Origin: a bacterium
GTDB lineage: Bacteria; Cyanobacteriota; Vampirovibrionia; Gastranaerophilales; Gastranaerophilaceae
Length of the DNA: 33,658 bases
NCBI GenBank assembly: GCA_017480425.1
Contig: JAFVAR010000038.1
Span: forward strand, 1-33,658
Reading direction: 5' to 3'
Made by a program: the position numbers and the translations under genes. Of the stretch, positions 2,648 through 33,658 are shown one piece after another. The notes below the pieces were generated by a model that was given only the letters and a program-made list of their open reading frames with translations, had not been told where the DNA came from and searched no databases. Each line of letters begins with the position of its first letter. The stretch's first letter is position 1.

Positions 2648-2663
2648 AATTAAATAAAAGTAT

Positions 2664-2736
2664 GCCGCAATAGCTCAGTTGGTAGAGCAAGGGACTGAAA
2701 ATCCCTGTGTCCTTGGTTCAATTCCGAGTTGCGGCA
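2664..2736 (+). tRNA. tRNA-Phe (anticodon GAA)
   Basis: All four arms can be drawn. The acceptor stem is GCCGCAA (2664-2670) pairing with TTGCGGC (2729-2735), with discriminator A at 2736. The D-arm contains AGCTCAGTTGGTAGAGC. The anticodon stem AGGGA/TCCCT closes the loop CTGAAAA, giving anticodon GAA. The T-loop is TTCAATT. The length is 73 nt and the 3' CCA is not encoded, so it must be added by nucleotidyltransferase. The gene follows infC by about 95 bases. Its 3' end is also part of a tandem repeat (see 2726-2955). Confidence 0.95.
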
Positions 2737-2955
2737 TATTTTTTTGGATATACGAGTTTTAAGAACTCGGAATTTCACGCCTTTTCATACGAAAAGGGGT
2801 TCGCCCCTCTCAGCAAACTTGACATTTAGTCAACTTTGCTTCGGCAGAGTGAGTTGCGGCATATTTTTTTGAATATACTAGTTTTAAGAACTCGGAATTT
2901 CACGCCTTTTCATACGAAAAGGGGTTCGCCCCTCTCAGCAAACTTGACATTTAGT
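2726..2955 (+). repeat. Tandem repeat copying the tRNA-Phe 3' end
   Basis: A 105-base segment at 2726-2830 recurs at 2851-2955 with only a few substitutions, an offset of 125 bases; 20 unique bases separate the copies. Each copy begins with GAGTTGCGGCATATT, the 3' part of the T-arm plus the acceptor strand of tRNA-Phe, so the second copy carries a tRNA 3' fragment with no tRNA. Each copy also contains the hairpin CCTTTTC-ATAC-GAAAAGG overlapping GGGG-TTCG-CCCC, so the two stems compete. Copy 1 has CGAGTT-TTAAG-AACTCG, which copy 2 weakens by substitution. These hairpins could act as tRNA terminators or processing sites; the tRNA-end duplication also resembles an integration scar. Confidence 0.85.
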
Positions 2956-3579: not shown

Positions 3580-3683
3580 TTTTTATGTTCTCAAAATCTC
3601 TGTTCTTCCTTCTCAAACCGACTGTTATTATACAGTTATATGAATTTAGAAATTTTTGTTGTTTAATATTATAAGAGGTATTT

Positions 3684-22044: not shown

Positions 22045-22364
22045 TAAACTGTACAAGTAAAAACAGTTAACTTTCCAATATTATTTTATCACTTTATAAA
22101 ACTCCCGACCGCTAGAATAGACAAATTTACTAAATCATAGCACAATAATTACACTAACTGAAATAATCAAACTACTCAAAAAATGTAAAATAACAGTTGG
22201 TTTGAGAAAAAAGAATATAGAGTTTGGGAGTTGTTTTGGTGAAAAAATATGATTGACTTTTTTTCTGTCGGGTTGAAACCAGACCTATAAACTTAATGAA
22301 TTTGGTGATGCCGAATCCCATTTTTGATGGTTCAAAATTAGTGTTTGCAATATGTAACTAAACG

Positions 22365-22402: not shown

Positions 22403-22534
22403 CGGCAACGTTCTCTATGGTTTTTAGGACACTTTTGAAATCGTTTTTTGCTATTCTTAATCGCCATGTTTGGCTTTGTGTTTGAGTTTTACCTGCTTCC
22501 CCAAGTCTGAGAGTCGGGGTTTTGAAAAGTCCGG

Positions 22535-22566
22535 AATGTCCGGTTATTAGGACGAAAATGTCCGGT
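22535..22566 (+). repeat. Second 22-base-period repeat pair
   Basis: AATGTCCGGT occurs at 22535-22544 and 22557-22566, again with a 22-base period, and a related AAGTCCGG lies just before. Its role is unknown; it may be a second class of protein site. Confidence 0.6.
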
Positions 22567-23114
22567 ATTTTTCCAAAAAATTTTATAAAATTGCCAAGTT
22601 CCCCGATTATATTTGAATTGTAGCGATTGCCAATAAGTGGACTTTTGAGAAAATTTGTTGCTCGAAAATCATGCTAAACTCGGAAAAATCCCATAAATTG
22701 TGCCTTTTAGGACTCTATTTAATTCGTATATTTCTATAACATTTGCTCTTAAGTCGGAAGTTTTCTTTTTAGAGGGAAGTTGCTTCCCTAACTTTATTTA
22801 TAAATATTTCAGACAATTTTATTTCAAAAATAACAACTTACTTTTCCAAAACTAAGTGTAAAAAATATCAGAACGATTTTAATCTTTTAAGAAGGAAACA
22901 GAACTGAGAGAAAAACGCAAATTTTTACTAAATTCTGAATTCAAACCGTGTTTAAATTGCGTTTAAAAGGTGTTCAAAAGCAGTTTTATAAAATTTTCTG
23001 CTTAAAATTCAGATATAATCGAACACAAAACAACACATTTCCCCCTCAAACACTTCCAATTTGAGAGAAACCAGTCTAACATACAGTAGCTTTAATAATA
23101 TATAAGGATTCGGT

Positions 23115-25178
23115 ATGGCAGACATTAACAATAATGATATCTGGATTGATGTAGAGACATTAGCAAAATTAAAAAACATTACTCGAAGAGCAGTTCGGCT
23201 TGCGCTTAATCAAAATAAATATGAATACAAAGTCGAAAATATCAGAGGTGGTAAAACTTATAAGATTAAATTATCTACACTTGAAGAGGAGCTCCAGCTT
23301 AAATATTTTCAGGAATATTATGATGATTATAAAACCTGTGAAAATGAGATTATTGAGCTATCAAATCTGAATATCAAACAGGAAAAACTTATATCTGAAA
23401 ACCAAAAGAAAATTGCACTCGCTAAATATGATTTAATCTATGCTTGGCTTGATTTTAGGAAAGAACATAAAAGAGATAAACTCAAAACCAACGGCAACAT
23501 TCCCGATAAAGAATTTTTGCAATTATATAATACCGGAATGTTTCAAGAGGAGATTTTTAAGACTTTAGGAAGAGTTTCAATCGGTTCTCTTTATCGCTGG
23601 CGGGCATTATTAAATTATAACAAGGATTGGACTGCGTTAGTCGGGCAATATAAATATTCAACAAGAAAAGAATACCGAACAACATTAAATGAAGAACAGT
23701 CAAAAATATTTATACAGATATTATTATCCCCAAGCGCATTTTCTATCGGAAAGTCTATAACATTAACAAAACATATATTAAATGAACGTGGTTATGAAAT
23801 ACTTCCAAAAGATGTAACATTCAGAAGATATGCTGAATGGTTTCGGGACAACAACTTTGATAAATGGACACTCGCCCGACATGGAGAAAAAGCACTTAAG
23901 GATAAAGTTGCACCATATATCGTAAGAAACGCATCATTACTTAAACCTGCACAAGTGCTTATTGCCGATGGTCACGACCTCAACTTCCAAGTAATTAACC
24001 CTTTTACAGGCAGAGGGTGCAGAGCGACTTTAATCGGATTTTTAGATTGGAAATCCGGCGGACTTGTAGGATATGACATTATGCTTGAGGAATGTACGCA
24101 AAATATTGCATCCGCTTTAAGAAATGCAATATTAAACTTGGATCACATTCCGCAATTTGTTTACCAAGATAACGGCAGAGCATTCAAAAGTAAATTCTTT
24201 AACGGAGATAAAAAGTTTGAGGAACTTGGATTTACAGGAGTTTACAAACGGCTTGGAATAGAACCTGTTTATGCCACTCCATATAACGCTCGTGCTAAAG
24301 TCATTGAGCGTTTCTTTTTAGAATTTCAGGAAAGCTTTGAAAAATTAGTGCCAAGTTATATCGGAACATCAATAGAGAATAAACCGGCGCACTTGATGAG
24401 GAATGAAAAATTACACAAACAAATCCATGAAAAATATAGTTTCACTCCAACGATAGAACAGGCTCGAATGATGATAGATAAATGGCTTGAATTTTATCAT
24501 TCCAAAGAATGCACCAATGTACCCGGCAAAACTATTCAACAGGTCATCAATGAAACAGAAAAACAGAATATTGATGAAAATATGCTTGATGATTTGATGA
24601 TGGCGCAGGAAATGAAAAATATCGGAAGAAACGGTATAAGATTTTTGAAGGCTGATTATTTTGACGAGGCACTATACGGAATCAGAGAAAAAACAGTTAT
24701 TAAATATAGTTTATTTGACCTTTCATATATTAAGGTTTACACCCTTAAAGGCGAATTTATTTGTAAAGCGCATCGTGTAACAGAAACTCATCCGCTTGCA
24801 AGTCAAATGGGTGATATTAACGACATTGAAGATTACAAACAAAAAATAGAAAAACAACAGAAATTACGCAAGAAAACCATAAAAGCAGTTCGGGAACATT
24901 TTAATCTTGAAGATATTGATTTTATTGAAAAAGAGTTGTTGGATAATATGAATTTTCAAAAAATTGAACCTGTAAAAGAAATAACTGTCCAACCTGAACC
25001 GGAGACAAAACAAGAATTTAAACCAAAAATTAAAACATCGATAGTCGCAAGACCGATTTTCAGAAACAACTTTGAAAGGTACGAATGGCACATCAATAAC
25101 GGATGTTTAAATCCAGAAGACAGGACTTGGTTTGAAAATTATGTAAAGTCAGATGAATACAGAGAAATATACAAGTAG
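23115..25178 (+). CDS. Mu-type DDE transposase (MuA/TniA-like)
   Basis: The product is 687 residues. An N-terminal winged-helix part (about 8-60; DVETLAKLKNITRRAVRLAL) resembles the Mu DNA-binding domain. The end-binding region (about 145-260) includes SIGSLYRWRALLNYNKDW and LNERGYEILPKDVTFRRYAEW. The RNase H-fold core has D285 (LIADGHD), D352 (VYQDNGRAFKS) and E398 (RAKVIERFFLEF), so all three catalytic acids are present. A beta-barrel and a charged C-terminal tail follow, the tail probably contacting the ATPase encoded next. It cuts and joins the transposon ends. ATG 23115 has TAAGGA 6 bases upstream. Catalytically it looks intact. Confidence 0.93.
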   Translation: MADINNNDIWIDVETLAKLKNITRRAVRLALNQNKYEYKVENIRGGKTYKIKLSTLEEELQLKYFQEYYDDYKTCENEIIELSNLNIKQEKLISENQKKIALAKYDLIYAWLDFRKEHKRDKLKTNGNIPDKEFLQLYNTGMFQEEIFKTLGRVSIGSLYRWRALLNYNKDWTALVGQYKYSTRKEYRTTLNEEQSKIFIQILLSPSAFSIGKSITLTKHILNERGYEILPKDVTFRRYAEWFRDNNFDKWTLARHGEKALKDKVAPYIVRNASLLKPAQVLIADGHDLNFQVINPFTGRGCRATLIGFLDWKSGGLVGYDIMLEECTQNIASALRNAILNLDHIPQFVYQDNGRAFKSKFFNGDKKFEELGFTGVYKRLGIEPVYATPYNARAKVIERFFLEFQESFEKLVPSYIGTSIENKPAHLMRNEKLHKQIHEKYSFTPTIEQARMMIDKWLEFYHSKECTNVPGKTIQQVINETEKQNIDENMLDDLMMAQEMKNIGRNGIRFLKADYFDEALYGIREKTVIKYSLFDLSYIKVYTLKGEFICKAHRVTETHPLASQMGDINDIEDYKQKIEKQQKLRKKTIKAVREHFNLEDIDFIEKELLDNMNFQKIEPVKEITVQPEPETKQEFKPKIKTSIVARPIFRNNFERYEWHINNGCLNPEDRTWFENYVKSDEYREIYK

Positions 25179-25190
25179 AAAGGAGAATAG

Positions 25191-25910
25191 ATGAAAAAAG
25201 TTTTTGTAAAAACAAATAATGTAAAACGGTTCATTACGATGATGAATAATCTGCAAAACCGAGCGGAAGGAGTTCCCGGAATGGGACTTGTATATGGTGA
25301 ACCCGGATTAGGCAAAACACAGACAATAAATTGGTGGGCATTCAAAAATAACGCAATACTTGTCCGCTGTACTCAACTTATGACAGCTCGTTGGTTATTG
25401 ACTGAAATACTTGATGAAATGGGAGAACTTAGCGGCTATAAAATATCTGATTGCTTTAAACTTGTAGTCAGAAATTTGTTAGTAAATCCGCAAATAATAA
25501 TTGTTGATGAAGTTGATTATTTAACGGTAGATTCAAGAGCGGTAGAAACTTTAAGGGACATTCATGATAAAACGAATGTCCCTATTATTTTGGTTGGAAT
25601 GATTAATGCTAAATCAAGATTGAAAAAATTTAATCATTTATACGACAGATTATCTGAAATCGTAAAATTTGAGAAATTTTCAAAAGCGGATATAAAAACA
25701 ATTGTTCAGGAATTATCTGAAGTTGAAATGACAGACTGCGCTATAAGGTATATTTATACTAATTTAAACAGATTCCGACAAATTGTAAAAGTCATAAACA
25801 AAGCTGAAATAATAGCAAAAGCAAACGGATTAAATTCTATTGACGAAATACTTATAAAGGAGGCAATTGCGAATGAAACAGAAAATATTGAAACTAATCA
25901 AGAATCTTGA
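25191..25910 (+). CDS. MuB/TniB-type AAA+ ATPase
   Basis: The product is 239 residues. Walker A is GEPGLGKT (36-43) and Walker B IIIVDEVDYL with D106 and E107; the sensor region reads PIILVGMINAK. A C-terminal helical part follows (LNRFRQIVKVINKAEI). MuB-type ATPases form filaments on target DNA, recruit the transposase and give target immunity. It lacks the N-terminal helix-turn-helix of phage Mu MuB, being closer in size to TniB-like proteins. It begins 12 bases after the transposase stop with AAAGGAG, and its last 38 bases overlap the next gene. Confidence 0.9.
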   Translation: MKKVFVKTNNVKRFITMMNNLQNRAEGVPGMGLVYGEPGLGKTQTINWWAFKNNAILVRCTQLMTARWLLTEILDEMGELSGYKISDCFKLVVRNLLVNPQIIIVDEVDYLTVDSRAVETLRDIHDKTNVPIILVGMINAKSRLKKFNHLYDRLSEIVKFEKFSKADIKTIVQELSEVEMTDCAIRYIYTNLNRFRQIVKVINKAEIIAKANGLNSIDEILIKEAIANETENIETNQES

Positions 25911-27423
25911 AAAATTTAAATCTGAGGATATTATTACTTTAACCGAATTAAGTGAAGATATAGTGAACAAATATCTCGAAGAATTGTTGGCAGAAGATAA
26001 AATTTGCAAAATAGCAAATTATGAGTATGCGTATTTACCGGAAATTATAGAAAAAGCAGATACTAAAACTGGAGAAACAAGCGGAATATACAAAAAGCCA
26101 ATCTATAAAATAGATCTTAAAAAAGAAAGAATAGAAGATATAAAACCTGAGGAATTATTTCCCAAAAAGGATGAGGTCAAATTTTTTAATGAAACAAAAG
26201 ATTATAATAAAAGAAATATCGTAAAAATTTTAACTGTTTTTAAACTTGCCGGTAATTTAAGGGGAGAGAGCTTAAAAAAATATTTAAAAGAACTGTCAAT
26301 CAAGCATCCTGAATATAAAATTTCATATTCAAATTATGTAAAATATCAAAGAAAATATTTAGCACAAGGGATTAGAGGGCTGTGTCTTAAATATGCAAAC
26401 TACGCAAATGTAAAAACTTCAGTTAAACCTGAAATGTATGAGATATTTAAAAAATATTATTTATCAAATAAACAATACTCGCTAACGGCAGCATATAAAA
26501 TTGTATGCAGAAGTTTCCCTGATTGTGATATTCCAAGTAAAATGAGTTTTAACAGACTTTTACTAAAGGAGTATAAGCCTGAGCATATAAAACAATTAAG
26601 GGAAACTCCAATAAATCTGCCTGATTTATCATACAATGTTAAAAAAGAAATTGCTGATAAATTGTTATTTGATAAATTTATTGATGCTGCGCATTATCAT
26701 TATGATTTATTAGATAAGAAAAATACCGAATCGGCAATTTGTCAAAAAGGTTATATTAAAAACCATTTAATACCATATTTTGAAGGGTATAAATTTAAAG
26801 ATATTACTCAGGACATTATAATTAACTACCAAAGTAAAATGGTCTCTCTAGGGTATTCAATAGCAAGTATCCGCAGATTTTTATCGGTATTAAGCATTTT
26901 ATTTTCAAAATATTCAGAATGTGCAGAAGATTTAAATTTCGTATCAGATAATGCACCAATTCCGTCATTGGAAATAAGTTATTATACAAACAAAGAAATA
27001 AAGGAAATAATATATAATAAAAAGCCGGAATTGTGGATATTGTGTTTAGGAATAACTCCGGCAGAACTATCCGCATTAAGATACGAGGATATAGATAAAA
27101 ATAACAGAACTGTTTTTATTCAAAGAACCGTATTTCAAGGAGTAGAGCAACCGCACAGAGCAAAATACCGTAAGCGCCACCTAAAAATTCCCGCAATAAT
27201 TTTTGATGATATAGATTTTAAAAATAAAGGTTTAATTTTTAAAGATATTGAAATTAATAATTATGACAAGCTTATAAATACGCATATTCACCTGCTGTTA
27301 GAGAAAAACGTACAAATAAATATAATCAGCAAAAATCTTGGTTTTCATAATATTAAAGATTTTGAAAGCAGATATAATTTTTTGTTACCGCAAAAATTGG
27401 ATGATAATTTTCAAATTTTATAA
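25873..27423 (+). CDS. MuA-like DNA-binding region joined to a degenerate tyrosine recombinase
   Basis: The product is 516 residues from ATG 25873, which has AAAGGAGG upstream inside the ATPase gene. Residues 1-60 look like a winged helix. Residues about 110-245 resemble the end-binding part of Mu-type transposases (SNYVKYQRKYLAQGIRGLCL, YYLSNKQYSLTAAYKIV, PSKMSFNRLL). Residues about 260-350 match the core-binding domain of tyrosine recombinases and 365-516 the catalytic fold (LGITPAELSALRYEDID; LLLEKNVQINIISKNLGFHN). By alignment Arg-I is T395, the H-x-x-R box is D465/I468 and the LGH His is F491; only the Tyr (Y501) and possibly a Lys near 431 remain. It is therefore probably a non-catalytic DNA-binding or assembly factor. 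No equivalent is known to me in Mu, Tn7 or Tn5053. Confidence 0.75.
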   Translation: MKQKILKLIKNLEKFKSEDIITLTELSEDIVNKYLEELLAEDKICKIANYEYAYLPEIIEKADTKTGETSGIYKKPIYKIDLKKERIEDIKPEELFPKKDEVKFFNETKDYNKRNIVKILTVFKLAGNLRGESLKKYLKELSIKHPEYKISYSNYVKYQRKYLAQGIRGLCLKYANYANVKTSVKPEMYEIFKKYYLSNKQYSLTAAYKIVCRSFPDCDIPSKMSFNRLLLKEYKPEHIKQLRETPINLPDLSYNVKKEIADKLLFDKFIDAAHYHYDLLDKKNTESAICQKGYIKNHLIPYFEGYKFKDITQDIIINYQSKMVSLGYSIASIRRFLSVLSILFSKYSECAEDLNFVSDNAPIPSLEISYYTNKEIKEIIYNKKPELWILCLGITPAELSALRYEDIDKNNRTVFIQRTVFQGVEQPHRAKYRKRHLKIPAIIFDDIDFKNKGLIFKDIEINNYDKLINTHIHLLLEKNVQINIISKNLGFHNIKDFESRYNFLLPQKLDDNFQIL

Positions 27424-27470: not shown

Positions 27471-28259
27471 TTATTTTTCATTTTTAACATCTAAATTATA
27501 GTCAACAATATTTTCTTTACTTGTTTTTTCTTCCCAAACCGTTGCAATATCACAAACTGAAGCACCATCTTTTTCTATAATATGAGTAAATTGATATGGG
27601 TTTTCTGTTCTGTTGGCACTGCAGGTTAAAGTGTCACCCAAAAAAGTTTCTTTATTAAACCTTATATGCAGATTTTTTAATCTGCGTGTTTTTCTGAATT
27701 CATCAGGGGCTGTCATCTCGGCAAGGTTTATATAACTTTTGTTGTTGACGTGTTTGTTAAAATCAGTATCTGATAAATTGTTAGTGTGTTCTATTTTTGT
27801 ATAAACTTCCGTTGTTTCAGGAAGAATAAACTTCTTGTGTTCACCCAAAACAAGTTCATTAACAATTTCAAACTTTTCAGCAACTTCATCTGCTTTCACG
27901 GGTCTTTGAGTATCTCTGCTAATTAAAAACCACAATGAATTTCCTTTAGCAATAACTTTATCTTTAGAATAAATATAGAAGTCAATATAAATCTTGAGTT
28001 TAGAAACTTCTGAAAACCACAGTTCAACCTTTATCTCCTCTGACCAGAAGGGTAAATTTTCGGTAAAATCCATATTAATATCCGCAACAACCCAATACAG
28101 ATTTTTTGCAAACAAATCGTATGCTGCCATTCTTTTGGTCGCCGTATATCTTGCAAAAGCGTCTTGCAGATACATTATTGCAGAAATCGGTCTGAGCCGA
28201 TATTCAAATAAATCCATATTATCAAGTATTACATTGTATGTCTTTGTGTATTTTTGCAT
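27471..28259 (-). CDS. Acyl-ACP thioesterase (FatA/FatB-like, double hotdog)
   Basis: The product is 262 residues, a normal length. The N-terminal hotdog has MYLQDAFARYTATKRM, and the second hotdog has the family motif DTDFNKHVNNKSYINLAEM, where Asn and His of N-x-H-V-N are catalytic. It hydrolyses acyl-ACP to release free fatty acid and ends chain growth. It starts 3 bases after the stop of the flavoprotein gene upstream, so the two form an operon, though no strong ribosome site is seen. Its last codons (AAT GAA AAA TAA) coincide with the proposed right end of the transposon, so the native C-terminus may have been replaced. Confidence 0.9.
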   Translation of the reverse strand: MQKYTKTYNVILDNMDLFEYRLRPISAIMYLQDAFARYTATKRMAAYDLFAKNLYWVVADINMDFTENLPFWSEEIKVELWFSEVSKLKIYIDFYIYSKDKVIAKGNSLWFLISRDTQRPVKADEVAEKFEIVNELVLGEHKKFILPETTEVYTKIEHTNNLSDTDFNKHVNNKSYINLAEMTAPDEFRKTRRLKNLHIRFNKETFLGDTLTCSANRTENPYQFTHIIEKDGASVCDIATVWEEKTSKENIVDYNLDVKNEK

Positions 28260-28262
28260 GAT

Positions 28263-28934
28263 TTAATTTTCCATTTCCGTTAATCTTTTACCCAAATCAA
28301 ATGCTTTTTCAAGGTCTTTCGGGAACTGTTCATCTCTTTGTTTTGCTTTTGCTTTTTCATCAACCATATCTGCCATATATTTTGAATAATCGCTAAATTG
28401 ATATGTGTTATATGCGGTTAAAGTTTCACAGTATCCAAAAAATCTCTTGGCTGTATTTACATCAGGTGCAAAAATTGCAGGATAGTTAAACATTTCTGCT
28501 TGTTCAGGATTACAATTCATCGTATAAATAAATCCGACATTTAATTTTTTCTTAAGTAACATTTTAGGAAATGTCGGGTCATCACCTTTTGAATATGTCA
28601 TCATAGCAAAGAATAATCTTTCTAAAACATTTCTGAACATTCCTGTTTGATAAGAGTAATAAATCGGTGTTCCCATAATCAGAGCATCAGCATCTAATAT
28701 TTTTTCTAAAACAGGTCTTAAATCATCTTTATAAGCACAAAGTCCACCTGTTGTATTACCAATTCTCTTACAAGCAAAACAGCTGATACAACCCTTATAA
28801 TTAAGATTTATAAGGTCAATATATTCAACATCTGCTCCAACTGATTCAGCACCTTTTTGTGCTTCTTTTAACATTTTGGCAGTATTCCAATTCTTTCTCG
28901 GACTTGCATTTAATATAATAACTTTTTTAGACAT
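28263..28934 (-). CDS. NAD(P)H-dependent FMN reductase / flavodoxin-fold protein with Cys cluster
   Basis: The product is 223 residues. The N-terminus VIILNASPRKNWNTAKML is the FMN phosphate loop of the NADPH-dependent FMN reductase family. C-x2-C-x2-C-x8-C (CISCFACKRIGNTTGGLC) resembles the [4Fe-4S] motif of iron-sulfur flavoproteins, with altered last spacing. GTPIYYSYQTGMFRNVLERL is the second flavin loop. It may reduce quinones, oxygen species or other electrophiles. ATG 28934 follows AGAGAGG. It diverges from the TetR gene, whose product may control both directions. Confidence 0.87.
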   Translation of the reverse strand: MSKKVIILNASPRKNWNTAKMLKEAQKGAESVGADVEYIDLINLNYKGCISCFACKRIGNTTGGLCAYKDDLRPVLEKILDADALIMGTPIYYSYQTGMFRNVLERLFFAMMTYSKGDDPTFPKMLLKKKLNVGFIYTMNCNPEQAEMFNYPAIFAPDVNTAKRFFGYCETLTAYNTYQFSDYSKYMADMVDEKAKAKQRDEQFPKDLEKAFDLGKRLTEMEN

Positions 28935-28984
28935 ATTCTACCTCTCTTTTGACCTATGGCTATATTAGCATAAAAACATGTGGA

Positions 28985-29019
28985 TTCTTCTATAAATTGC
29001 AAAGTTTTAAAGAATGTGC
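28985..29019 (+). repeat. 35-base direct repeat, left copy
   Basis: It matches 32620-32654 at 33 of 35 positions. In both places CCTATGGCT precedes it (28953-28961 here, adjacent at 32611-32619), separated here by 23 extra bases. The two copies enclose the TetR-to-acetyltransferase gene set. Confidence 0.85.
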
Positions 29020-29055
29020 ATAAATTTATTTTTGTAAATATTTATACTATAAGTC

Positions 29056-29084
29056 ATTGACTTTTGGTCAGTATAATATATAAT
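29056..29084 (+). promoter_or_regulatory. tetR promoter with overlapping operator-like palindrome
   Basis: TTGACT (29057-29062), 16 bases and TATAAT (29079-29084) form a good promoter. TTGAC-TTTTG-GTCAG (29057-29071) is an imperfect palindrome covering the -35 and spacer, the expected position for TetR-type autorepression. Binding is an inference. Confidence 0.5.
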
Positions 29085-29118
29085 GAAATTATAGCATGTA
29101 CTAATGAGGTGTTTCATT

Positions 29119-29721
29119 ATGACTAAAAGACAAGAAAATGCGCTTAAAACCCGTAAGAAGTTAATAGATACAGCAGAAGATTTACTAAAAGCAAACGGTT
29201 TTAATGCCCTTTGTGTTGAAGATATAACCAAAGCAGCAGGAGTCGCAAAAGGTACTTTCTATGTTTACTTTAAGCACAAAGAAGATATAGTTGCTGAAAT
29301 ATGCAGAGGGTACTTTAAGGAAATTGAAGATGAAATATCAAATATGTCGGGTTCTGATATAATCGAAAAATTATCCCTGTATTTTGATAACTTTATGAAA
29401 GCGGTTGAACTCTATGGCATAAATATATGTCGTGAATGGATTAGGGGTTCAATAGACCCGAAAACGGCACCTGATAATACGGATATGAGCAAGTGGCAGT
29501 ATGATGTTGATATGTTGAAAAACATACTGAATAATGCCATTAAAAATAAAGAACTAAAAAAAGATACACCTGTTGAACTCTTAACACATCTTATCATATC
29601 TGAACTGTACGGAATGATGACTTGTTGGTGTATGTCAGACGGTGTGTTTGAACCAAAAGAATGGACTCGAAAGTTTTCAGAGTTCCAATTAAAAGCAGTA
29701 TTAGACAAATATTTAATATAA
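29119..29721 (+). CDS. TetR-family transcriptional regulator
   Basis: The product is 200 residues from ATG 29119 (MTKRQENALKTRKKLIDTAE), with TGAGGT upstream; the in-frame ATG at 29104 overlaps that site and is not preferred. The HTH is VEDITKAAGVAKGTFYVYF KHKEDI in the usual N-terminal place. The C-terminal helical domain (about 60-200) includes SLYFDNFMKAVELYG and SELYGMMTCWCMSDG and would bind a ligand and dimerise. The ligand is unknown; electrophiles or quinones are plausible given the reductases that follow. The aldo/keto reductase begins 11 bases downstream, so it is the first gene of this operon. Confidence 0.92.
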   Translation: MTKRQENALKTRKKLIDTAEDLLKANGFNALCVEDITKAAGVAKGTFYVYFKHKEDIVAEICRGYFKEIEDEISNMSGSDIIEKLSLYFDNFMKAVELYGINICREWIRGSIDPKTAPDNTDMSKWQYDVDMLKNILNNAIKNKELKKDTPVELLTHLIISELYGMMTCWCMSDGVFEPKEWTRKFSEFQLKAVLDKYLI

Positions 29722-29732
29722 GGAGCAGAATT

Positions 29733-30725
29733 ATGCAGTATGTAAAATTAGGCAACAGTGGTGTTGATGTTTCAAGAATTTGTTTAGGTTGTATGAGTTT
29801 CGGTAAGCCCGGCAAAGAAAACGGTGTTTTCCCTTGGGCTAAAGATTTTGACGAAGCAAAGCCTATATTCAAGAAAGCAATTGATTTAGGTATCAATTAT
29901 TTTGATACGGCTAATGTTTATCAACTCGGAACAAGTGAAGAAATTACAGGTCGTTTGATTAAAGAATACGGACTTGATAGGGATGAAATCGTAGTTGCTA
30001 CAAAGGTTCATTTTGCTATGAGAGAGGGCAGACCAAACGGTGCAGGTTCAAGCCGTAAAAATATTATAGCAGAAATAGACCACAGTTTAAAAAGATTAGG
30101 ACTTGATTATGTGGACTTATACCAAATCCACAGACTTGACCATGAAACACCTATGGAAGAAATAATGGAAGCACTTCATGATGTAGTTAAGAGTGGTAAA
30201 GCAAGATATATTGGTGCTTCTACAATGTTTGCTTGGGAGTTTGAAAGATTAAATCAAATAGCAGAGAGAAACGGTTGGTCAAAGTTTGTTTCAATGCAGA
30301 ACCAATACAACTTAATTTATCGTGAAGAAGAAAGAGAAATGATGCCTTTGTGTCAGGATAGAAAAATCGCAGTTGTACCTTGGTCGCCATTAGCAGGCGG
30401 AAGATGTGCTCACCCATGGGGAACTAAAACATACAGAAATTCAATGGATGATGTTTCTCCAATGGTATGGGGTTCAACAGATGCACAAGACAAGATTGTT
30501 GTTGATAACTTGGAAAAAATCTCAAAGGAACTTGGCTATACAATGGCACAGATATCACTTGCTTGGATGTTATCAAAACCTTATGTAACTTCACCTATTG
30601 TTGGGTTCACAAGTGAAAAACATGTTGAAGAAGCAGTATCGGCACTTGATATTAAATTGAGTGATGAAACAATCAAGGCACTTGAAGCACCCTATGTACC
30701 ACATATTAAGACAGGAGCGTTCTAA
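29733..30725 (+). CDS. Aldo/keto reductase
   Basis: The product is 330 residues from ATG 29733, which has AAGGAG. An in-frame upstream start at 29661 would overlap tetR and is rejected. The (beta/alpha)8 family marks are present: GINYFDTANVYQLGTSEE with the catalytic Asp and Tyr, VVATKVHF with the Lys, VDLYQIHRLD with the His, and near the C-terminus SPIVGFTSEKHVEEAVSAL for the NADP phosphate. It reduces aldehydes or ketones with NADPH; sequence places it with YajO/Tas-like reductases rather than giving a substrate. Its stop overlaps by one base the next ATG. Confidence 0.93.
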   Translation: MQYVKLGNSGVDVSRICLGCMSFGKPGKENGVFPWAKDFDEAKPIFKKAIDLGINYFDTANVYQLGTSEEITGRLIKEYGLDRDEIVVATKVHFAMREGRPNGAGSSRKNIIAEIDHSLKRLGLDYVDLYQIHRLDHETPMEEIMEALHDVVKSGKARYIGASTMFAWEFERLNQIAERNGWSKFVSMQNQYNLIYREEEREMMPLCQDRKIAVVPWSPLAGGRCAHPWGTKTYRNSMDDVSPMVWGSTDAQDKIVVDNLEKISKELGYTMAQISLAWMLSKPYVTSPIVGFTSEKHVEEAVSALDIKLSDETIKALEAPYVPHIKTGAF

Positions 30726-31360
30726 TGAAAGTATTATTATTTAATGGTTCACCTCATAAAGAGGGCTGTACTTATACGGCACTTACAGAAATTGCTAAAA
30801 CTTTAAAAGAAGAAGGCATTGATTCTGAAATCTATCAAATAGGCATTGGTTCAATTACCCCATGCAGAGGTTGCTTTGCTTGTCAGAAACTTGGCAGGTG
30901 TGTAATAAATGACGATAAAGTAAATGAGTTTGTTGATTACATACAAGACTTTGACGGCTTTATTTTCGGTTCACCTGTTCATTACGGTTCTGCTTGTGGT
31001 GGAATTACAGCATTTTTAGACAGAGCATTCTTTGTTAATTTTACAAGCGGTAAGAAAGGTTTTGAACACAAACCTGCTGCTGCCGTTGCTGTTGCAAGAC
31101 GGTCAGGAACTACTGCAACATTAGACCAATTAAACAAGTATATGACTATTACTCAAATGCCGATTATTTCAGGCCGGTATTGGAATATGGTTCATGGCTA
31201 TACTCCTGATGATGTCAAACAAGATTTAGAAGGTATGCAGAATTTAAGAATACTTGCTCGTAATATGGCTTGGCATTTAAAATGCCACGAAGCAGGTAAA
31301 AAAGCAGGTATTGAACTTCCTAAACAGGAAGAAATTGTGTTTACGAACTTCATAAGATAG
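30725..31360 (+). CDS. NAD(P)H-dependent flavin reductase, iron-sulfur-flavoprotein-like
   Basis: The product is 211 residues. VLLFNGSPHKEGCTYTAL is the FMN phosphate loop. C-x2-C-x2-C-x5-C (CRGCFACQKLGRC) resembles the compact cluster motif of iron-sulfur flavoproteins. GSPVHYGSACGGITAFLDR is the second flavin loop. The ATG overlaps the reductase stop, so translation is likely coupled. It is related to, but not a close copy of, the leftward gene 28263-28934. It probably moves electrons to small redox targets; the substrate is unknown. Confidence 0.9.
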   Translation: MKVLLFNGSPHKEGCTYTALTEIAKTLKEEGIDSEIYQIGIGSITPCRGCFACQKLGRCVINDDKVNEFVDYIQDFDGFIFGSPVHYGSACGGITAFLDRAFFVNFTSGKKGFEHKPAAAVAVARRSGTTATLDQLNKYMTITQMPIISGRYWNMVHGYTPDDVKQDLEGMQNLRILARNMAWHLKCHEAGKKAGIELPKQEEIVFTNFIR

Positions 31361-31371
31361 AGGAGAATGCA

Positions 31372-31854
31372 ATGTCAAAGAGTTTAATAGTATATTTTTC
31401 AAGAATAGGCGAACAATATTCAGTTGGTGATATTTCAGAAGGTAATACTTCAATTATTGCCAAAATGATAGCAGATAAAACAGGTGGAGATTTGTTTGAA
31501 ATTAAGGTTGCACATGATAACTATCCTCATGGTTATATGGCATTAACTGAATATGCTAAATCTGAAAAACAACAGAATGCAAGACCTGAAATAGTTGGTA
31601 GTGTTGATAACTTCAACGACTATGACGCAGTATTTATCGGTTATCCTAACTGGTGGGCAGAAATGCCAATGCCTGTTTATACATTTCTTGATAGTTATGA
31701 TTTAACAGATAAAAAGGTTCATCACTTCTGTACTCACGAAGGGTCAGGCGGTGTAAAAAGAGAGGGCTTCGCTATCTATGGTCATACCGCACAGAACAAC
31801 AGAGCCGAAGCAGAAAAACAAGTTTCGCAATGGCTGAAAGGATTAGGATTTTAA
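31372..31854 (+). CDS. Flavodoxin
   Basis: The product is 160 residues. SLIVYFSRIGEQY...NTSIIAKMIADKTGGDLFEI is the flavodoxin N-terminus with the FMN phosphate loop, and GYPNWWAEMPMPVYTFLD the aromatic flavin loop. The family with this YPNWW motif includes short flavodoxins encoded beside aldo/keto reductases. It would carry one or two electrons in the cytoplasm. ATG 31372 has AGAGGAG. Its TAA overlaps the next start. Confidence 0.92.
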   Translation: MSKSLIVYFSRIGEQYSVGDISEGNTSIIAKMIADKTGGDLFEIKVAHDNYPHGYMALTEYAKSEKQQNARPEIVGSVDNFNDYDAVFIGYPNWWAEMPMPVYTFLDSYDLTDKKVHHFCTHEGSGGVKREGFAIYGHTAQNNRAEAEKQVSQWLKGLGF

Positions 31855-32399
31855 TGGAAGAAGTTAGAATTGATGTAAGAACACAAAGCCCTGAAAGAAT
31901 CACAGAAGCAAGAAGAAGTTCTGATTTGTGTTTTAGGATAAACCATACAAATCCTACAACACCTGAATGTCAGGAACTTATAAACGAACTCTTTAACAAT
32001 ACATTGGGTGAAAACACAAGAATAAATCCTCCGATTTTTACTATCCTTGCTGATAAAGTTAAAATCGGTAAAAATGTTATTATTATGAATGGGTTTCAAT
32101 GTATGTCAGCAGGTGGCTTAACCATTGAAGATAATACAATGATTTCTCTGAATTGCACCATTGCAACAAACAATCACGATATGTATGACAGATATGTTAT
32201 AACCTGTAAGCCTGTTCATATAAAGAAAAATGTATGGATTGGAGTTAATGTTACTATCTTGCCGGGGGTAACGGTTGGAGAAAATGCCGTTATCGGAGCA
32301 GGAGCAGTTGTAACAAAAGATGTTCCTGATAACGCAGTAGTTGTCGGAAATCCTGCAAGAGTGATAAAATATCTTGATGCAGAAAAATTTAAGGCTTAA
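31854..32399 (+). CDS. Hexapeptide-repeat O-acetyltransferase (maltose/galactoside type)
   Basis: The product is 181 residues from ATG 31854, overlapping the flavodoxin stop. An in-frame ATG at 31830 lies inside the flavodoxin gene and is less likely. The left-handed beta-helix shows as repeated hexapeptides (VKIGKNVIIMNGF, GLTIEDNTMISLNC, VWIGVNVTILPGVTVGENAVIGAGAVVTKDV, VVVGNPARVIK). The His in ATNNHDMYD is the expected catalytic base. It transfers acetyl from acetyl-CoA to a sugar or similar hydroxyl. It is the last gene of the tetR operon; a strong terminator follows 90 bases later. Confidence 0.92.
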   Translation: MEEVRIDVRTQSPERITEARRSSDLCFRINHTNPTTPECQELINELFNNTLGENTRINPPIFTILADKVKIGKNVIIMNGFQCMSAGGLTIEDNTMISLNCTIATNNHDMYDRYVITCKPVHIKKNVWIGVNVTILPGVTVGENAVIGAGAVVTKDVPDNAVVVGNPARVIKYLDAEKFKA

Positions 32400-32488
32400 T
32401 TATAATTGGACTCGAACCATGTAAAACATTGGTGGTTATTGAATTTAGACACAAATTTTAATAATTTAATGATTAATAGATTAAATAC

Positions 32489-32524
32489 AAATAAAGAGTG
32501 GAAAATGCCTTCCACTCTTTATTT
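32489..32524. terminator. Intrinsic terminator, possibly bidirectional
   Basis: A perfect 14-bp stem AAATAAAGAGTGGA / TCCACTCTTTATTT with an 8-base loop. The stem supplies T-rich tails on both strands, so it can work in both directions; it ends the tetR operon. Confidence 0.9.
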
Positions 32525-32619
32525 CAATATGATTTAATTTTTAGAAACTCCCCGAAAAGTGCCAGAATCGAACTTTTTGTATAAACCTGTATTCCGCTAT
32601 TGTTAACACTCCTATGGCT

Positions 32620-32654
32620 TTCTTCTATAAATTGCAAGGTCTTAAAGAATGTGC
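32620..32654 (+). repeat. 35-base direct repeat, right copy
   Basis: It differs from 28985-29019 at two positions and sits 22 bases before the GNAT start codon, just as the left copy sits in the tetR upstream region. The intervening 32525-32619 contains no gene. Confidence 0.85.
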
Positions 32655-32676
32655 TTGTTTATAGTAGTATTTATTT

Positions 32677-33108
32677 ATGACAGAATTTGACTATCAAAAA
32701 TATATCGGATTGAATGACAATATTATAAAAATCAGAACATCTGTTTTTGTTGATGAACAGGGCTTTAAGGATGAGTTTGATGAAACTGATAAAACCTGTT
32801 CTCATATTGTCCTGTATGATAATGAAAAACCTATTGCTACTTGTCGATATTTTAAAGAGGGTGAAATTTATCACATTGGCAGAGTTGCGATTATAAAAGA
32901 ATATCGAGGGCAGGGGTTAGGCAACAAAATTATGCAAATTGCCGAGAATGAAATTAGGGGTAAATGTAATGGTGAGAAATGCGTGGTTGAAGTTTCCGCA
33001 CAAGTCAGGGTTTCAGAGTTTTATAAAAAATTAGGTTATAATGAAATCGGCAATATTTATTTTGATGAATATTGCGAACACATAAGAATGATAAAGGAAT
33101 TATCATAA
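32677..33108 (+). CDS. GNAT-family N-acetyltransferase, ElaA-like
   Basis: The product is 143 residues. KIRTSVFVDEQGFKDEFDETD matches the ElaA-type N-terminus R-x2-VF-V-x-EQG. The acetyl-CoA loop is RVAIIKEYRGQGLGNKIM (Q/R-x2-G-x-G/A), and VSEFYKKLGYNEIG the GNAT C-terminal element. It transfers an acetyl group to an amine; the substrate is unknown. No clear ribosome site precedes ATG 32677, so the start is less certain. It stands alone, after the 35-base repeat, and converges on the last gene in the window. Confidence 0.88.
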   Translation: MTEFDYQKYIGLNDNIIKIRTSVFVDEQGFKDEFDETDKTCSHIVLYDNEKPIATCRYFKEGEIYHIGRVAIIKEYRGQGLGNKIMQIAENEIRGKCNGEKCVVEVSAQVRVSEFYKKLGYNEIGNIYFDEYCEHIRMIKELS

Positions 33109-33141
33109 AATTTTTCTTAAATTTTCAACTATACAATTTAA

Positions 33142-33658
33142 TTAATTTAAAGTCTCAGAATTTGGCTGAACCAAAAGCTCATCTATATTTTCTTCAAAAT
33201 CTTTTGGCAGAATTTTACAATTATTTAGTGAATATTGAATTAACCTTTTTTCTCCTGGATGCAATAACTCATTAACTGCAAAAATTACATCAAAATAACT
33301 TGCTAAAAATGCAGAAATTCTGTGATTAATACTAACAATATCATTTCTTTTTATCGCTTTTTCAATCTGTTCATAGTATGAGGCAAAAGGCTTATCATAC
33401 ATCAGCATCATATTTCTTTTGATAATATTTTCTTTAAGTTCTTTTGGGTACTCAGTTTTTATTGACTTTTGCAAATTCAAAAGCCAATTATCCGTATCAT
33501 AAATAATTTGAAAGTTGTTTAAGGTATATAAAAATGCAGTTGTATAACCGTTTGATGGGTAATGTTTAACCCAAACATTTTCTACAATATCGTTAAACCA
33601 ATTTACACCCCAGTACATAACATCTAATTGTTGATTTAATTCATCAACAAAAAATTCA
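33142..33658 (-). CDS. Probable DUF4037-type nucleotidyltransferase-related protein, truncated by the window
   Basis: The frame is open to base 33658, so the N-terminus lies outside; the internal Met at 33618 is not the start. About 171 residues are visible. NGYTTAFLYTLNNFQIIYD and LLHPGEKRLIQYSLNNCKIL resemble the C-terminal, all-helical half of DUF4037/aminoglycoside-nucleotidyltransferase-like proteins (the N-HPGEKR-L segment is what I recall). The nucleotidyltransferase core that would prove it lies beyond the window. Function unknown. Confidence 0.55.
   Translation of the reverse strand, partial: EFFVDELNQQLDVMYWGVNWFNDIVENVWVKHYPSNGYTTAFLYTLNNFQIIYDTDNWLLNLQKSIKTEYPKELKENIIKRNMMLMYDKPFASYYEQIEKAIKRNDIVSINHRISAFLASYFDVIFAVNELLHPGEKRLIQYSLNNCKILPKDFEENIDELLVQPNSETLN

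Follow-up and report, generated by a model that had tools for sequence, protein, structure and literature searches.

Phage Mu is the textbook near-random inserter; Tn7 elements relying on TnsD/TniQ selectors, as well as CRISPR-associated transposons (CASTs), insert in a fixed orientation at a short distance downstream of a conserved gene and bear defence-type cargo. Homing to tRNA genes is also found among CASTs (PMC11656645). In the Tn7-like transposon Tn6022, an inactivated tyrosine recombinase with zinc fingers, TnsF, acts as the target selector in a system that includes TniQ and has comM as its target (PMC10293859). The CasMu-I transposons possess an extra protein, CasMuC, which derives from a dead MuA paralogue and was proposed to be an adaptor to the target-recognition module (PMC10910872). 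Here we analyze a three-gene Mu-type transposition module from a representative of the Gastranaerophilaceae (assembly GCA_017480425.1, contig JAFVAR010000038.1; the whole stretch of 33,658 nt is referred to as the window, and the loci of relatives are labelled L031, L034, etc.). The third protein of this module combines a MuA-like DNA-binding domain with a tyrosine integrase whose catalytic residues are lost. As relatives of the element are often found immediately past tRNA genes, the dead integrase may take part in picking the landing site.

Judging from sequence and predicted structure, the third protein is rather probably a target selector. The three genes would form the transposition module of a phage-free, cargo-carrying transposon of the Mu family, in which TnpA would bind and join the element ends, the MuB-like ATPase would capture target DNA, and the third protein would recruit the ATPase. 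The winged helix and the MuA-like domain of this protein may serve as the adaptor that links it to the transposition machinery, and target-DNA binding would be contributed by its variable C-terminal module, in this case a non-cutting tyrosine integrase. Insertion in the best-sampled relatives resembles the homing of Tn7, being located just past the tRNA terminator, in a fixed orientation and at several kinds of tRNA genes. A broader proposal, whose chances lie slightly below even, is put forward tentatively: the ATPase and the selector would constitute an exchangeable cassette, evolved independently of TnsF, and the MuA-paralogue DNA-binding domain of the selector, joined to a dead tyrosine integrase, would direct insertion to the downstream side of tRNA genes with neither guide RNA nor TniQ. 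If true, an inactivated tyrosine recombinase was recruited as a targeting subunit for the second time, in a different transposon family, and tRNA-homing Mu relatives with defence-type cargo resemble Tn7 in lifestyle and represent compact guide-free targeting modules.

According to the earlier note on this DNA, no relative of such transposons was known to use a protein derived from a recombinase. TnsF of Tn6022 is a counterexample (PMC10293859), and with CasMuC as the precedent for a dead MuA paralogue the claim of novelty is in need of correction. The locus resembles the TnsF system in having a dead tyrosine recombinase, derived from active integrase-like proteins, beside a DDE transposase and an AAA+ ATPase. 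However, it belongs to the Mu family rather than to Tn7, and no TniQ-like gene was noticed beside the module (TniQ, PF06527, gave no match in 19 genomes, a search in which the positive controls gave no signal either). Instead of the zinc fingers of TnsF, the third protein possesses the winged helix and the MuA-like domain, with no CxxC in 516 residues; TnsF consists of two core-binding domains and a partial catalytic domain (CB1-CB2-partial CAT), whereas the third protein has the complete core-binding plus catalytic fold; and TnsF targets comM, while the relatives considered here occur at tRNA flanks. The likeness to CasMuC consists in an additional MuA-paralogue-derived protein in a Mu transposon, although in CasMu-I a CRISPR effector is the target module, and here only the MuA-like DNA-binding domain is present, fused to the dead tyrosine integrase (no search was aimed at CRISPR genes). 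The oriented, short-distance insertion of relatives downstream of a conserved gene and their defence-type cargo are reminiscent of the Tn7 elements with TnsD/TniQ and of CASTs; unlike in CASTs, no guide RNA was identified. TnpA and the ATPase fall into the Mu group (phrog_310 and phrog_296, respectively), and Mor-like and gpP/terminase-like genes stand beside many copies as in phage Mu, from which the elements differ in the added third gene, non-random insertion and, mostly, the absence of virion genes nearby. No Mu-family transposon with such a dead-integrase fusion and tRNA-flank insertion was found in the literature searched.

Transposition Module and Domain Architecture of the Third Protein

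The first gene (23115-25178, plus strand, as are all features of the module and of its left region given below) encodes a Mu-type DDE transposase, TnpA, of 687 aa, which matches the transposase family phrog_310 (3.6e-92) and the Pfam domains Mu-transpos_C (1.8e-13) and rve (2e-5) and carries the D/D/E motifs ADGH, QDNG and VIERFF at residues 285, 352 and 398. It is followed by a MuB/TniB-type AAA+ ATPase of 239 aa (25191-25910; phrog_296, 4e-51; TniB, 8e-7; AAA_22, 4e-17) with Walker A GEPGLGKT and Walker B IIIVDE. A DDE transposase with the Mu C-terminal domain and a neighbouring ATPase of this type place the module in the Mu family. The gene of the third protein, the candidate target selector (25873-27423, 516 aa), starts with ATG directly 3' of the ATPase gene, with an overlap of 38 bp; the coordinates, lengths and overlapping frames of all three genes had been correctly read before.

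The N-terminal 60 residues (25873-26052) form a winged helix common to the third-gene classes: the first 60 residues in the model of the relative L220 superimpose on the winged helix-turn-helix (HTH) of the Rok repressor with a root-mean-square deviation (rmsd) of 1.4 over 59 residues. Residues 111-245 (26203-26607) constitute a MuA Ibeta/Igamma-like DNA-binding domain. They match the transposase family phrog_310 (3.3e-5); the Igamma-like part aligns with the family's own TnpA in hhalign (probability 83%, E 9e-6), and residues 182-246 of the window model fit MuA Igamma (2ezh) with an rmsd of 2.2 for 63 of 65 residues. Weak matches to the nuclear magnetic resonance structure of MuA Igamma and to TnsB were also obtained with the family profile. 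The C-terminal half is composed of a core-binding (SAM-like) domain, residues 255-350 (26635-26922; Phage_int_SAM_3, 8.7e-7, and fold comparison), and a catalytic domain devoid of catalytic residues, residues 351-516 (26923-27420), recognized by profile and structure matches. Residues 260-458 match the integrase family phrog_1 (2.4e-10), the family profile retrieves solved tyrosine recombinases (3nkh, 1.6e-17; 4a8e, 7e-15; 5hxy, 2e-14), and the C-terminal half aligns with the resident integrases of the same genomes at 100% hhalign probability (1.8e-50). AlphaFold modelled the window protein with low confidence overall (predicted local distance difference test, pLDDT, 56), two regions being better; residues 372-511 of the model match the Int of Tn1549 with Z 9.7. 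A relative with 26% identity was modelled better (pLDDT 74) and displays complete core-binding and catalytic folds, with Z 16.5 to an archaeal Xer, and an entry of the viral structure library labelled just 'Integrase' is 60% identical to the modelled relative. The third protein has the tyrosine recombinase fold, comprising both the core-binding and the catalytic domain; in this respect, as well as in the likeness of residues ~110-245 to the end-binding part of the transposase, the reading made in the earlier note was borne out.

The catalytic losses had likewise been read correctly: the window protein has Thr at Arg-I, Asp/Ile at the HxxR box and Phe at the LGH His, the Tyr being retained. When 55 family members were aligned together with integrases of their own genomes, the family was seen to keep Arg-I in 1/55, the HxxR His in 0/53, Arg-II in 10/53, the LGH His in 4/53 and the Tyr in 42/53 proteins; most of the resident integrases in the same alignment keep the catalytic set. 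With the catalytic residues lost across the family, it is therefore very unlikely that these proteins recombine DNA by themselves.

Exchange of Modules Among Relatives

Two exchange patterns were revealed. L033/L034 and L036/L209 share ~97% identical TnpA and similar left-region DNA, and their third proteins are only 36% identical. Between L034 and L036, TnpA is 95-100% identical in most 40-residue blocks, and the ATPase is 98% identical in its first 40 residues and 51-75% beyond them; the ATPases of the two pairs are 98-100% identical over residues 1-40 and mostly 49-78% thereafter, which indicates a recombination point inside the ATPase gene. Conversely, the window and L031 share 96% identical ATPases and 82% identical third proteins, whereas residues 1-200 of TnpA, its end-binding part, are 50-71% identical (the rest mostly 72-100%) and the left ends are not alignable. 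Thus, the ends track the N-terminus of TnpA, and the third protein tracks the ATPase; within the module it is the third gene that diverges fastest and is exchanged. Such naturally swapped modules offer a direct way to test how ATPase, selector and target are connected.

These patterns bear on the possibility that the third protein is an end-binding or synapsis factor, its MuA-like domain sitting on the transposon ends beside TnpA. That residues 111-245 are homologous to the part of TnpA that binds the ends speaks for it; nevertheless, third proteins differ where TnpA and left-region DNA are shared (L033/L034 versus L036/L209), they are alike where left ends are unalignable (the window and L031), and some third-gene classes lack the MuA-like part altogether, so we regard this role as very improbable. 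Module exchange appears to be the strongest evidence against end binding and for a role on the target side. Of the two functions considered in the earlier note, target-site selector or end-synapsis factor, the former is the best supported, and the latter is unsupported, given that neither TnpA nor the end sequences covary with the third protein.

The third protein might also regulate the transposition operon, as a repressor or immunity factor, with no part in target choice, which would agree with its N-terminal winged helix and with the phage repressor complex 9rgl (SroF-Sar of phi3T), one of the structures that the recombinase part was found to match. We consider such a function improbable in view of the position of the third gene, its overlap and co-exchange with the ATPase gene, and the separate Mor-like and HTH genes already standing beside the module in many relatives.

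Insertion Sites

In the best-sampled clade of full-length forms (L047-type) the elements have the left end TGTAAAGAAACAGGACAATACAG, their flanks being divergent, and left ends start with TGT in most of the 17 mapped relatives. In this clade, 10 of the 17 mapped left ends lie 54-381 bp beyond a same-strand tRNA gene, counted from its 3' end: six at 54 (Ser), 62 (Met), 62 (Ser), 92 (Ile), ~105 (Phe) and 110 (Gln) bp, with no gene between the tRNA and the element and in a single orientation, and four at 225-381 bp (Met, Met, Met, Ser), several of the longer gaps looking like the end sequence of another element. The insertions lie beyond the tRNA terminator hairpin. The 11 relatives counted have 29-56 tRNA genes per genome, so that ~0.07 tRNA-proximal left ends would be expected among 17; the binomial P of ~1e-20 is descriptive, because both the limit of 400 bp and the set of 17 left ends were picked after the data had been seen. 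Sites from related lineages count only partly as independent observations, although they come from different genera and concern different tRNAs. Over all third-gene classes, 25 of the 26 nearby upstream tRNA or transfer-messenger RNA (tmRNA) genes are on the strand of the element. Elements with closely similar proteins occur at different tRNAs (L052 at Met and L214 at Phe; L216 at Ser and L232 at Gln), and the L214 element lies at IF3-tRNA-Phe, the orthologous locus in the window being free of that insertion.

The elements could have reached these positions by hitchhiking inside integrase-made islands at tRNA genes, since tRNA 3' ends are found in duplicate at the very same sites, as left behind by ordinary integrase islands. 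Yet the left end itself is located 54-110 bp from the tRNA, with no intervening gene, in one orientation and at several tRNAs, which makes this explanation the most improbable of those considered.

Several points weigh against the proposed selector model. In the best-sampled clade 7 of 17 insertions are away from tRNAs, two of these at the 3' end of a presumably serine-recombinase-like gene (L053) and at the flank of what we take to be an HTH-antitoxin-like gene (L219); a search for T-arm-like sequence upstream of the non-tRNA insertions gave only weak matches. No tRNA gene adjoins the window copy, and L031 and L040 are the only members of its clade that do lie at one. Neither the right end nor the exact target duplication was resolved at the loci studied. 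Finally, tRNA or tmRNA genes also lie upstream of elements that have no recombinase domain (L059, L060, L070 and the prophages L134, L135, L138 and L139), so the choice of tRNA may reside in the shared N-terminal part or in the ATPase.

Alternatively, homing could be set by the ATPase or TnpA, e.g., through DNA shape or transcription terminators, the third protein only activating or modulating the ATPase and its recombinase domain being a generic DNA clamp. The tRNA proximity in every third-gene class, recombinase-less ones included, and the position of insertions after the terminator hairpin would fit this explanation. Still, the third gene diverges fastest in the module and is exchanged, as expected of a specificity subunit, and a selector role would account more readily for its tandem duplication (L038, L056, L058, L211, L212); we find homing by the ATPase or TnpA unlikely. 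In the earlier note both modules of the third protein were taken to recognise DNA; the narrower idea that the recombinase domain itself would be the target reader is plausible but doubtful as far as the reading of tRNA-gene DNA is concerned. As to the targets suggested there, chromosomal recombination sites or tRNA ends, many relatives do lie beside tRNA genes, but the window copy is found 140 bp after a SpoIIE-type gene.

Other traces of insertion were seen at or near such sites. Downstream of tRNA-Phe in the window (2663-2900 and 3591-3630) the 3' end of the tRNA occurs in duplicate and a remnant of a right-end-type motif, TTCTCAAACCGACTGTTAT, is present, which makes it probable that other elements used this tRNA gene earlier. 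Extra copies of tRNA 3' ends are present at the tRNA-Ser and tRNA-His sites of L180, L183, L182 and L186, as scars of ordinary integrase islands beside transposon sites. In L051 (21000-21200, oriented, extended) the left end directly adjoins that of a different kind of element, which points to a nested or a tandem insertion.

Distribution and Forms of the Third Gene

Relatives were detected in 70 of 192 genomes of the order, a count that takes in Mu-type domains of other transposases and plain integrases, and, at a stricter cut-off, in 52 of 383 genomes of the family; their host group is Candidatus Gastranaerophilales, bacteria of the gut. A profile of the closer full-length forms recovered 16 loci from genome contigs (15 strong and one weak archaeal), the named hosts being mostly Candidatus Gastranaerophilales or Melainabacteria, with one Clostridia bin. 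The IMG/VR scan and tblastn against phages and plasmids gave only generic integrases and no further relatives.

The linkage of homologues to MuA/MuB-type genes, proposed as a check in the earlier note, was confirmed: in all 41 loci read the third gene directly follows the ATPase gene, overlapping it or nearly so. It occurs in full-length form, as the N-terminal half only (243-255 aa), as an HTH-integrase without the MuA-like part (353-384 aa) or split; L043 has the N-terminal half followed by the HTH-integrase, and Mu-like prophages have a short form of 221-229 aa. On the TnpA tree the third-gene classes are clustered with few changes, not every class being of single origin. Mor-like, HTH and gpP/terminase-like genes flank the module in many relatives, and no virion genes are nearby in most copies examined. 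In the cargo of L046, L047, L049, L052 and L066, matches to defence models comprise a type I restriction enzyme, a reverse transcriptase-protease, a GmrSD/HEC-06-like gene and a kinase resembling Stk2 or PD-T4-6.

L061, L069, L134, L135, L138 and L139 are Mu-like prophages with two transposition modules in series, the targeted-type TnpA-ATPase-third gene preceding a second TnpA-ATPase, and with genes that we take to be GemA-like; in four of the six a same-strand tRNA gene lies 386-1136 bp before the first tnpA. In L033 (5709-6728, oriented) an opposite-strand gene of 339 aa sits between tnpA and the ATPase gene.

Ends, Surroundings and Cargo of the Window Element

The element had been delimited to 23115-27423, a span that does hold the three genes; it is larger, however, with its left end probably at 22184, and no right end was found before the end of the contig. 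The probable left end (22184-22208), TGTAAAATAACAGTTGGTTTGAGAA, matches the left-end type TGTAAAGAAACAGGACA with which most of the 17 mapped relatives start and before which their flanks diverge. The probable left-end sequence of the window copy, TGTAAAATAACAGTTGGTTTGAG, is the reverse complement of the right-end-type motif TTCTCAAACCGACTGTTATTTTAC present at other loci. A GGACA/TGTCC-rich left subterminal region (22407-23114) holds a unit of ~230 bp that is tandemly repeated in relatives; upstream of tnpA, the window shares 80-92% DNA identity with L040, L206, L207, L208, L209 and L036, and two or three tandem copies of the unit are present in the left ends of L040 (7380-7900), L206, L207 and L036. 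The motif GTTGAACACYTTTTGAAC, tried as the right end, precedes variable cargo at several loci and is no proven end. An 11-bp-phased motif, GTTGAACACYTTTTGAACANCGTTTGAA, stands after the module and before variable cargo in L047 (10647-10674) and at many other loci.

The nearest tRNA gene upstream of the window copy is 20 kb away, and Rfam gave no RNA gene at the insertion point. Comparison of relatives yielded no chromosomal empty site for the window copy: the gene downstream of the SpoIIE-type gene is variable in them, and where the SpoIIE-type gene and the right-hand neighbour of the module were compared with relatives, their best matches fell on separate contigs. The genes at 27471-33618, up to the contig end, are probably cargo, possibly in part chromosomal flank; Pfam assigned them to FMN reductases, TetR, aldo/keto reductase, hexapeptide transferase and GNAT, and the gene at 27471-28259 presumably encodes a thioesterase.

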